This document shows positions 3,254-37,548 of a DNA stretch of 61,592 nt, piece by piece. The number at the start of each line of letters is the position of its first letter. The first letter of the stretch is position 1. The stretch covers positions 1 through 61,592 of the forward strand of contig NZ_JAPPVQ010000001.1 in NCBI RefSeq assembly GCF_026768455.1, read 5' to 3'. A program made the translations under genes and the position numbers. The DNA is from Candidatus Nitrosotenuis cloacae. Lineage in GTDB: Archaea; Thermoproteota; Nitrososphaeria; Nitrososphaerales; Nitrosopumilaceae. The notes under the pieces are model-generated. The model made no database searches and had not been told where the DNA came from. It saw only the letters and a program-made list of their open reading frames with translations.

Positions 3254-3990
3254 GCGGAACGGTATACCTTGTAGGTGCAGGACCTGGAGATGAAAAACTC
3301 ATCACGGTACGCGCAGTCGAACTAATCAAGAGCGCAGATGCAGTGCTGTATGACCGACTGGTAAGCGACAAGATAGTCGCACTGATACCAAAAAAGGCAC
3401 ACAAAGTCTACGTCGGGCGAGAGGTCGGAGACGACTACAAGCACCAAGACTCTACAAACAAGATGATGGTGGATCTGGCAAAAAAGCACAAGCGCGTAGT
3501 GCGACTGAAGGGTGGAGATCCTTTCATCTTTGGAAGGGGCGGCGAGGAAGCAGAATACCTAAGAAAATACAAAATAAAGTTTGAAATCATTCCGGGAATT
3601 ACATCTGGAATCGGCTCTGCAGTGTACTCTGGGATACCACTGACGCACCGCAAATACTCGTCATCCGTCGTGTTCGTAACGGGACATGAGGATCCTATGA
3701 AGACAAAGTCTCCTGTAAGGTGGAGGACACTGGCAAAATCAGTTGAGACAATCGTGATAATGATGGGGCTCTCAAGGATTGGAATAATATCAAAAGAACT
3801 CATTGCGGGCGGGCTGGCAAAAAGCACCCCTGTGGCAGTAATTCAGAACGGAACCACAACAAAACATCGACTTGTAGTGGGTACTCTTTCCAATATTGAA
3901 AAGAAAATCCAACAAAACCAGATAACTCCGCCGTCAATAATTATAATAGGTAACGTAGTAAAACTCCACAAAACCGTGGGATGGAAATGA
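3250..3990 (+). CDS. cobA: Uroporphyrinogen-III C-methyltransferase (SUMT)
   Basis: SAM-dependent methylation of uroporphyrinogen III at C2 and C7 to give precorrin-2, the branch point to siroheme, cobalamin and, with siroheme decarboxylase, heme. Family motifs are GAGPGDEKLITVRAVELI at the N-terminus and VRLKGGDPFIFGRGGEE in the middle; the GxGPGD and GGDPxxFGRGxEE blocks form the SAM/tetrapyrrole site. The 246 residues correspond to a stand-alone SUMT without a CysG dehydrogenase fusion; that partner is the separate gene at 18614. It overlaps hemC by 4 bases and is followed by hemD, so substrate maker and user are co-transcribed. Confidence 0.96.
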   Translation: MSGTVYLVGAGPGDEKLITVRAVELIKSADAVLYDRLVSDKIVALIPKKAHKVYVGREVGDDYKHQDSTNKMMVDLAKKHKRVVRLKGGDPFIFGRGGEEAEYLRKYKIKFEIIPGITSGIGSAVYSGIPLTHRKYSSSVVFVTGHEDPMKTKSPVRWRTLAKSVETIVIMMGLSRIGIISKELIAGGLAKSTPVAVIQNGTTTKHRLVVGTLSNIEKKIQQNQITPPSIIIIGNVVKLHKTVGWK

Positions 3991-14378: not shown

Positions 14379-14477
14379 GCAGGGGTATCGAAGCCCGGTC
14401 AACCGAGAGGGACTCAAGATCCATAATAGGAAATCCCTTCCTTTAGGGGTTCGTGGGTTCAAATCCCACCCCCTGCA
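14379..14477 (+). tRNA. tRNA-Leu(CAA) with 14-nt intron
   Basis: Acceptor GCAGGGG (14379-14385) pairs with CCCCTGC (14470-14476), discriminator A 14477, CCA not encoded. D stem TCG/CGA, T arm GTGGG-TTCAAAT-CCCAC. Anticodon stem AGGGA (14408-14412) pairs perfectly with TCCCT (14434-14438) only if bases 14419-14432 are removed, leaving loop CTCAAGA with anticodon CAA. The intron then sits at 37/38, the usual archaeal place, and carries a TCC/GGA helix as expected for a bulge-helix-bulge. Mature length 85 with a class II variable arm. TATATA near 14351-14356 is the likely promoter. Confidence 0.9.
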
Positions 14478-35288: not shown

Positions 35289-35411
35289 TCCCGAGCGAAG
35301 GAATTGAACCTTCGACACTCCGGTATCCGTGTTGCCTAGGTAGGCTGATTTCGGTTAGCCAATGGCCAAACCACTACAGCCGGAAGCTCTACCAGGCTGA
35401 GCTAGCTCGGG
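35289..35411 (-). tRNA. tRNA-Tyr(GTA) with 49-nt intron
   Basis: On the minus strand the acceptor CCCGAGC (35411-35405) pairs with GCTCGGG (35296-35290); discriminator A is at 35289, followed by CCA at 35288-35286. T8-A9, D arm GCTC/GAGC, anticodon stem TCCGG/CCGGA and T arm GAAGG/CCTTC are perfect. Removing 35325-35373 leaves the loop CTGTAGA with anticodon GTA, placing the intron at 37/38. The C1-G72 pair is the archaeal tyrosine identity. A TATTTAATA TATA box lies about 27 bases upstream. Confidence 0.93.
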
Positions 35412-36309: not shown

Positions 36310-36720
36310 ATGAGCAAGCCCGCAGAACTTGGTTCGCTAAAAATCGGTTCATACATTCTTCTGCCGGTAGGGGATCAGCCAACCGGAGAGCCATGCAGGA
36401 TATCCGAATACGACACAAGTAAGCCGGGAAAGCACGGGGCCGCAAAGGCTCGAATCGTCGGAGTCGGAGTTTTTGATAACCAGAAACGTCCGCACGTAGG
36501 TCCTGTCAGCATGCAGGTACATGTGCCGCTAATCGACAAAAGAAACGGTCAGATAATATCGATGACTGGTGAACTGATCCAGGTGATGGACAGCGAGACG
36601 TTTGAGACAATAGACGTCCAGATGGTCGACGACGAGGTCCAAGGAAAACTCGAGCAGGGCCAGATGGTCGAATACTGGAAGGTAATGGACCGAACAAAGA
36701 TCATGAGAATAAAGAGCTAA
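36310..36720 (+). CDS. eif5A: Translation factor aIF5A
   Basis: 136-residue homologue of eIF5A/EF-P that helps ribosomes form difficult peptide bonds. The N-terminal SH3-like domain carries K41 in SKPGKHGAAKARIVG, the lysine converted to deoxyhypusine or hypusine. The C-terminal OB domain has SMTGELIQVMDSETFETIDV. ATG 36310 is 26 bases after TTAAATATT. Single-gene unit. Confidence 0.96.
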   Translation: MSKPAELGSLKIGSYILLPVGDQPTGEPCRISEYDTSKPGKHGAAKARIVGVGVFDNQKRPHVGPVSMQVHVPLIDKRNGQIISMTGELIQVMDSETFETIDVQMVDDEVQGKLEQGQMVEYWKVMDRTKIMRIKS

Positions 36721-36741
36721 TTCTATCGAAAATCTCAGTAC

Positions 36742-36749
36742 TAAAATAA
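36742..36749 (+). promoter_or_regulatory. TATA box of the C/D-box sRNA
   Basis: TAAAATAA is centred about 25 bases before 36770, the 5' end of the predicted sRNA, supporting an independent transcript. Confidence 0.5.
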
Positions 36750-36769: not shown

Positions 36770-36834
36770 GGATGCTGATGATGAGTGGAAAAGCCATCTG
36801 AGCGTTGATGAGGATTATGAGTATTGAGGCATCC
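36770..36834 (+). ncRNA. C/D-box sRNA, predicted guide for elongator tRNA-Met C34
   Basis: 65-nt element with all parts of an archaeal C/D RNA: terminal stem GGATGCT (36770-36776) with GGCATCC (36828-36834), C box ATGATGA (36778-36784), D' box CTGA (36798-36801), C' box TTGATGA (36805-36811) and a variant D box TTGA (36824-36827). Guides are 13 nt (36785-36797) and 12 nt (36812-36823). The D guide, GGATTATGAGTA, is complementary to the anticodon loop of elongator tRNA-Met (ACUCAUAAUCC); the fifth base from the D box pairs with C34. The D' guide would pair with AUGGCUUUUCCAC, target not recognised. Confidence 0.8.
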
Positions 36835-36864: not shown

Positions 36865-37548
36865 GTGGATCTTGCGGCGTTATTTTCCGGAGGCAAGGAC
36901 AGCACCTTTGCAATATGGAAGGCACAGAAAATGGGGCACAAAGTAAGGTGCCTCGTAACCATCATGCCGCATTCTGAGGAAAGCCACCTTCTACACCACC
37001 CAAACATACTTCACACTGCGCTTCAGGCAGAATCGATGAACATCCCGCAAATCATAAAGCGTGCAAAATCCGACGATGCGCAAGAACAACTGGACCTTAT
37101 GACATCTGCACTGCTTGAGGCAAAGAACCTGTACTCGGTAAACGGGATTGTTCACGGCGGCATCCTAAGCGAGTTTCAGAAGAACCACTTTGAAACCGTG
37201 GCATCAAGTCTGGGACTATACGTGGTGACCCCAATCTGGAAAACAAACCAGCAACAATACATGAAGGAACTACTCGAATCAAAATTCGAATTTGTGATAT
37301 CTGCGGTGTCCTGCGACGGATTGGATGACTCGTGGCTTGGCAGAAAAATCACATCTGATGATCTTTTAAAACTAGAAGCGCTGTCTGAGAAACACAAATT
37401 CAATCTCAGCTTCGAAGGCGGGGAGGCGGAGACGTTTGTTGTCAACTGTCCTCTCTTTGACAACGCAATCAAAATCACCGATTACAAAAAACACTGGGAC
37501 GGTTACCGAGGAAGCTTTGAAATACTTCAAGCCAAAATAGGTGTTTGA
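36865..37548 (+). CDS. dph6: Diphthine--ammonia ligase family protein
   Basis: ATP-dependent amidation of diphthine on elongation factor 2, last step of diphthamide synthesis. 227 residues of the ATP-pyrophosphatase (adenine nucleotide alpha hydrolase) fold: PP-loop ALFSGGKDSTFAIWKA at the N-terminus, then VNGIVHGGILSEFQKNHFE and FNLSFEGGEAETFVVNCPLF, the Dph6 signature. GTG 36865 is 25-27 bases after TTTATTT. ffh begins at the base after its stop, so the two form an operon. Confidence 0.92.
   Translation: MDLAALFSGGKDSTFAIWKAQKMGHKVRCLVTIMPHSEESHLLHHPNILHTALQAESMNIPQIIKRAKSDDAQEQLDLMTSALLEAKNLYSVNGIVHGGILSEFQKNHFETVASSLGLYVVTPIWKTNQQQYMKELLESKFEFVISAVSCDGLDDSWLGRKITSDDLLKLEALSEKHKFNLSFEGGEAETFVVNCPLFDNAIKITDYKKHWDGYRGSFEILQAKIGV

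Follow-up and report, generated by a model that had tools for sequence, protein, structure and literature searches.

Stand-alone box C/D sRNAs predicted to guide 2'-O-methylation of the wobble cytidine (Cm34) of elongator tRNA-Met are known in Archaea from Pyrococcus (sR49) and Haloferax volcanii (PMC2584109), and archaeal Cm34 guides for this tRNA are also reported in PMC7994747. Among eukaryotic RNAs comparable by target, the human C/D RNAs SNORD97 and SCARNA97 guide the same tRNA mark (PMC6601510), and the separate SNORD49A/B guide 28S Cm4456, the equivalent of the rRNA position discussed below (PMC9941101, PMC11542601). Archaeal C/D guides have been described as evolving rapidly, with no rRNA target common to all seven species studied, and in the tRNA-targeting sRNAs of Pyrobaculum the other guide lacks a target (PMC7994747). 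A literature search for C/D sRNAs of Nitrosopumilus or Nitrososphaera returned nothing relevant. The locus described here, in Candidatus Nitrosotenuis cloacae, an archaeon of the ammonia-oxidising type (Thaumarchaeota, Nitrosopumilaceae), is comparable to sR49 and the Haloferax guide in being a stand-alone C/D sRNA with a predicted elongator tRNA-Met target, and it is highly likely, judged from sequence comparison, that it yields a 65-nt sRNA from its own promoter which would direct methylation of both this tRNA and the 23S rRNA.

The window (the whole 61,592-nt stretch of DNA analysed) contains the 65-nt box C/D sRNA gene at positions 36770-36834 on the + strand, delimited by boxes and a stem located in the sequence. 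The sRNA reads, from 5' to 3', GGAUGC-UGAUGA-UGAGUGGAAAAGCCAU-CUGA-GCGU-UGAUGA-GGAUUAUGAGUA-UUGA-G-GCAUCC, that is, terminal stem, box C, D' guide, box D', box C', D guide, box D and stem. The features of the locus, with guide bases numbered (N) from the adjoining D or D' box, are as follows:

36310..36720, + strand: eIF5A gene, the conserved upstream neighbour (Pfam IF5A-like_N and eIF-5a)
36740..36747, + strand: TATA-like promoter element ACTAAAAT, at a constant distance to box C in three gene contexts
36770..36775, + strand: 5' arm of the terminal stem, GGATGC, pairing with 36829-36834
36775..36781, + strand: box C, CUGAUGA (consensus RUGAUGA, R being C here); CTGATGA or CTAATGA in 109/112 distinct same-type sRNAs
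36787..36795, + strand: D' guide core GGAAAAGCC (N3-N11), N5 = G36793; nine Watson-Crick pairs with 23S rRNA
36798..36801, + strand: box D', CUGA; every sRNA recovered has CTGA, a box that the search patterns themselves prescribe
36806..36811, + strand: box C', UGAUGA; found in 111/112 distinct sRNAs
36813..36821, + strand: D guide core GAUUAUGAG (N3-N11), N5 = G36819; nine Watson-Crick pairs with elongator tRNA-Met 32-40
36824..36827, + strand: box D, UUGA, first base non-consensus (counts among 112 distinct sRNAs are given below)
36829..36834, + strand: 3' arm of the terminal stem, GCATCC; covariation at 4/6 pairs
36865..37548, + strand: Dph6-type diphthamide synthase gene, GTG start, the downstream neighbour (Pfam Diphthami_syn_2, E = 2e-55)

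The first-pass annotation had described an intergenic 65-nt C/D-box sRNA with all boxes and a 7-bp terminal stem. Each element was located where it had been placed and recurs in relatives, all four boxes occur in the expected order, and the element lies between the eIF5A and Dph6-type genes, all three being on the same strand. The stem exists and covaries, but has only six Watson-Crick pairs; for a seventh, the first U of box C would have to be drawn into a U-G wobble. The size of the element fits the 50-70 nt archaeal box C/D class, and single-sequence folding was uninformative (z = -0.46), as expected of a C/D RNA. No Rfam family matched the element at gathering scores, and the sub-threshold matches are all to C/D families. 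The best archaeal match is Pyrococcus sR41 (RF01126; E = 7.6e-7, 33.8 of 54 bits, below gathering), which shares the boxes and the motif UAUGAG at N3-N8 of the D guide, in the same register, the remainder of both guides being different. sR41 has been called an orphan, with 23S G1950 suggested as its target (PMC2584109). As the UAUGAG register is the C34-pairing register of the present element, sR41 may itself be a candidate tRNA-Met guide.

Matches to the sRNA are widespread in the order. A strict longer pattern matched 171 of the 200 Nitrosopumilaceae genomes, and 110/119 when only good assemblies were considered, with 0 matches for a control pattern; an earlier pattern covering the C'/D half had matched 23/61 relatives, likewise with 0 control matches. 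A covariance model built from 17 sequences recovered the element in 261/300 genomes of the order at E <= 1 (best E ~8e-23). It occurs in records named Nitrosopumilus, Nitrosarchaeum, Nitrosotalea, Nitrosotenuis, Nitrosopelagicus, Cenarchaeum and Nitrososphaera, and recurs in the sister family Nitrososphaeraceae; the record names suggest that sRNAs with an AAGAGCC-type D' guide belong to the latter family and those of the window's type (AAAAGCC) to the Nitrosopumilaceae. Among named records, a Nitrosotenuis MAG and a groundwater thaumarchaeote come closest to the window region, at ~73% identity. Both guide cores are kept across N3-N11 among the relatives compared, with N1-N2 variable, and this conservation within the guides and box D' is partly by construction, since most of the patterns used to find the element already specify guide bases along with the D' box. 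The terminal stem occurs in two main versions, GGATGC/GCATCC and GGGTCC/GGACTC, with 4/6 pairs changed on both sides; this covariation score was reached by 0/500 shuffles and was lost in all slid versions of the stem alignment. On this comparative evidence the locus is a real box C/D sRNA gene, unusually well preserved for its class, with both guides apparently retained in most Nitrosopumilaceae and in Nitrososphaeraceae. Very probably its D guide serves Cm34 of elongator tRNA-Met and its D' guide Cm at the equivalent of 23S C2510, which would make it a double guide.

The D guide had been assigned to the anticodon loop of elongator tRNA-Met, with the fifth base from box D pairing with C34 (the N+5 rule), and a complementarity search of the tRNAs and rRNAs had been proposed. 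When run, this search led from the D guide to tRNA-Met and from the D' guide to the 23S rRNA. The elongator tRNA-Met gene (L027; G000:C4:7439-7542) has a CAU anticodon, contains an intron and reads ...ACTCATAATC..., and N3-N11 of the D guide form nine Watson-Crick pairs with tRNA positions 32-40 without mismatch, placing N5 (G36819) opposite C34. This tRNA is the top D-guide match among 39 tRNAs and both large rRNAs. Shuffled 9-mers match anywhere in it in 0.035% of cases and in the C34 register in about 4e-6. C34 is maintained at N+5 in 111/112 distinct same-type sRNAs, ACTCATAATC together with the 30/31 intron matches in 166/200 Nitrosopumilaceae genomes, and in families f2, f4, f7, f12 and f14 the elongator tRNA-Met retains CTCATAATC, the same uninterrupted loop. 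Searches of the Nitrososphaeraceae for an elongator tRNA-Met, by D-arm and by CTCATAATCTGG, found none.

That the D guide serves all CAU tRNAs, including the initiator and tRNA-Ile2, rather than the elongator alone, is the most durable of the alternatives, although an unlikely one. Two of the 39 tRNAs found in the genome have a CAU anticodon, namely the elongator and a tRNA-Ile2-like gene (L018) that also contains CUCAUAA, the complement of N3-N9; no initiator tRNA gene was found among the 39. Cm34 has been reported in the initiator tRNA of M. maripaludis and P. furiosus, but the C34 of archaeal tRNA-Ile2 bears agmatidine (PMC7668247), and N10 meets C39 in tRNA-Ile2, in place of the U39 with which it pairs in the elongator. 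The specific assignment to elongator tRNA-Met is preferred: the D guide would bind the anticodon loop and adjoining stem (32-40) and direct 2'-O-methylation of the wobble C34, a mark that would keep this tRNA restricted to AUG. Variants of the D side occur in some genomes. An extra base between the D-guide GAG and box D is found in about nine genomes of genus g9 (G274, G233, G301, G368, G275, G220, G263, G290 and G272), as well as in G057 and G186, and would shift N+5 to U33 instead of C34. In L106 (G054) and L111 (G278) the D' guide GGAAAAGCC is unchanged and the D guide is different or shortened (AAATATAGGCGAG and GATTGAGAG, respectively), possibly reflecting replacement or decay.

Around its intron the tRNA-Met gene reads GCCAG, intron, ACTCATAATCTGG, which suggests an intron between nucleotides 30 and 31, as the CCAGA/TCTGG anticodon stem is required; the entire N3-N11 target would therefore fall within the 3' exon. 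In this it differs, as judged from their descriptions, from sR49 and the Haloferax guide, for which pairing extends to intron bases (part of the intron in Haloferax) and methylation has to precede splicing (PMC2584109). The core D duplex being independent of the intron, methylation could precede or follow splicing here. N1 of the D guide stands opposite G30 in the mature tRNA and opposite the last intron base in the precursor. Pairing of N1 with this intron base was considered, and holds in G000, G262 and G031 but fails in G034, G020 and G277; the idea was set aside because N1-N2 vary freely, and the kinship of the genomes prevents a clean test. Apparent second introns, located 3' of the anticodon arm or within the T arm, accompany the 30/31 intron in the elongator tRNA-Met genes L147 (G039), L157/L145 (G049) and L281 (G042). 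The window itself carries intron-containing genes for tRNA-Leu(CAA) at 14379-14477 (+ strand) and tRNA-Tyr(GUA) at 35289-35411 (- strand), both found by Rfam; a tRNA finder in its default mode without introns reported 0 tRNAs in the window.

The D' guide, which the first-pass annotation had left without a target, can now be placed at LSU position 3293. N3-N11 form nine Watson-Crick pairs with 23S 5'-GGCUUUUCC-3', N5 facing C3293, and this is the single perfect 23S site for the guide (context GAUGUCGG(C)UUUUCC). C3293 stands 42 nt 5' of the equivalent of the A-loop U2552. Human Cm4456 and Um4498 (E. coli Um2552) are likewise 42 apart, and Arabidopsis Cm2880 corresponds (PMC11542601); the equal spacing identifies LSU C3293 as the counterpart of E. 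coli C2510, close to the peptidyl-transferase centre. The rRNA reads GGCTTTTCC in 20/20 Nitrosopumilaceae genomes searched and GGCTCTTCC in the other families with a match, and the guide version AAAAGCC goes with the former and AAGAGCC, in the Nitrososphaeraceae, with the latter, such that N7 and its partner change together between families. The exception is G054, a genome of a third family (84% complete, 5% contaminated), which has an AAAAGCC guide and GGCTCTTCC rRNA. As the co-change amounts to essentially one clade-level event with one doubtful exception, it supports, rather than proves, the target. A coincidental match, with the D' guide being an orphan as is usual in the tRNA-targeting sRNAs of Pyrobaculum, would be consistent with the short duplex (9 bp here, 8 in some genera) and with the 1.2% of shuffled guides that find a perfect rRNA site. 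The co-variation of guide and target between families, and the known 2'-O-methylation of this position in human and plants, make this explanation very unlikely, and the D' guide is instead predicted to bind the 23S rRNA and direct 2'-O-methylation of C3293. The 23S gene (L054; G000:C14:431790-435469) is 3680 nt long and includes an ORF with a match to Pfam LAGLIDADG_1 (E = 1.8e-24); the insertion at about LSU 2117-2614 is probably an rRNA intron with a homing endonuclease.

The TTGA sequence of box D, noted as unusual in the first-pass annotation, is not an error but a trait of the family. Among the 112 distinct AAAAGCC-type sRNAs the D box is TTGA in 70, ATGA in 40, CTGA in one and GTGA in one, whereas the 15 distinct AAGAGCC-type sRNAs of the sister family have CTGA (13) or CCGA (2). 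With UUGA or AUGA in 110/112 of the sRNAs and D' staying CUGA, the deviation is characteristic of the lineage, and of the two boxes it is D' that follows the consensus. In a k-turn the first base of box D pairs with a G of box C, where U leaves a wobble and A a broken pair, and the UGA forms the sheared G-A pairs. The D side could be envisaged as a chaperone arm which holds pre-tRNA-Met open, for instance for splicing at 30/31, with only the D' side methylating, given the non-consensus first base of box D and the intron common to several families beside the D target. The C34 register at N+5 is nevertheless held in nearly all distinct sRNAs, the UGA of box D is retained, and sRNAs are known to guide the Cm34 mark of tRNA-Met in archaea (PMC2584109). 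Such a role is slightly less probable still than an orphan D' guide, and a methylating D side remains the favoured interpretation.

The first-pass annotation had also attributed a TATA box to the element, and this is borne out across genomes. ACTAAAAT lies 36 to 29 nt upstream of the first U of box C, and its spacing is kept inside the end of eIF5A, in the spacer and where intact eIF5A is lacking upstream. eIF5A is found upstream on the same strand in 154/191 loci, mostly <=150 nt away and often immediately adjacent. Where the eIF5A tail overlaps the TATA position, its Thr-Lys-Ile codons are ACT AAA ATH in 41/43 loci; where the gene ends further upstream, these residues have other synonyms or Val codons with ACTAAAAT in 0/10, and a TATA-like element occurs in the spacer at the same distance, the window being of this spacer version. 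The synonymous codons at the 3' end of eIF5A in Nitrosopumilaceae loci, such as L036 and L032, thus appear to be held fixed by a second role, as TATA box for the RNA gene that follows. Many loci without intact eIF5A upstream still have the sRNA and TATA box, and in some of these (e.g. L174, L042, L085 and L201) an apparent remnant of the eIF5A tail follows the element; the group of 57 loci without a recognised eIF5A tail also includes intact variants (RTIIVR, Nitrosotalea type) and does not equate to 57 losses of eIF5A. The comparison argues strongly for a promoter belonging to the sRNA itself, which in many relatives lies inside protein-coding sequence. That the element is a conserved structure of the eIF5A 3' UTR, as its frequent same-strand position directly after this gene might suggest, is exceedingly improbable given that element and TATA box survive without intact eIF5A upstream, that both guides fit RNA targets and that the C/D boxes and stem are complete. 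Transcription from this promoter would yield the 65-nt sRNA, on the two k-turns of which L7Ae, Nop5 and fibrillarin would be expected to assemble by analogy with the class.

Each of the two predicted marks is known elsewhere, the tRNA mark from archaeal Cm34 guides (PMC2584109, PMC7994747) and the rRNA mark from human and plants (PMC11542601). Novelty lies in this individual member of the class, in its predicted second target and in the combination of a tRNA with an rRNA target, as well as in how deeply the sRNA is conserved, in its relaxed D box and in its embedded promoter. A bolder proposal, doubtful at present, envisages one ancient RNP connecting decoding with catalysis: its single sRNA, maintained in two archaeal families, would modify the tRNA-Met wobble base as well as a base close to the peptidyl-transferase centre, and in the Nitrosopumilaceae the weakened D box would modulate the tRNA reaction or retard it with respect to the rRNA reaction. 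In contrast to the rapid guide evolution described for archaea and to the orphan second guides of Pyrobaculum, a single sRNA here keeps both guides, for a tRNA and for 23S rRNA, across most Nitrosopumilaceae and in Nitrososphaeraceae. The locus thereby provides two exact predicted methylation sites in archaea that are abundant in the sea and in soil, along with a natural series of D-box changes.
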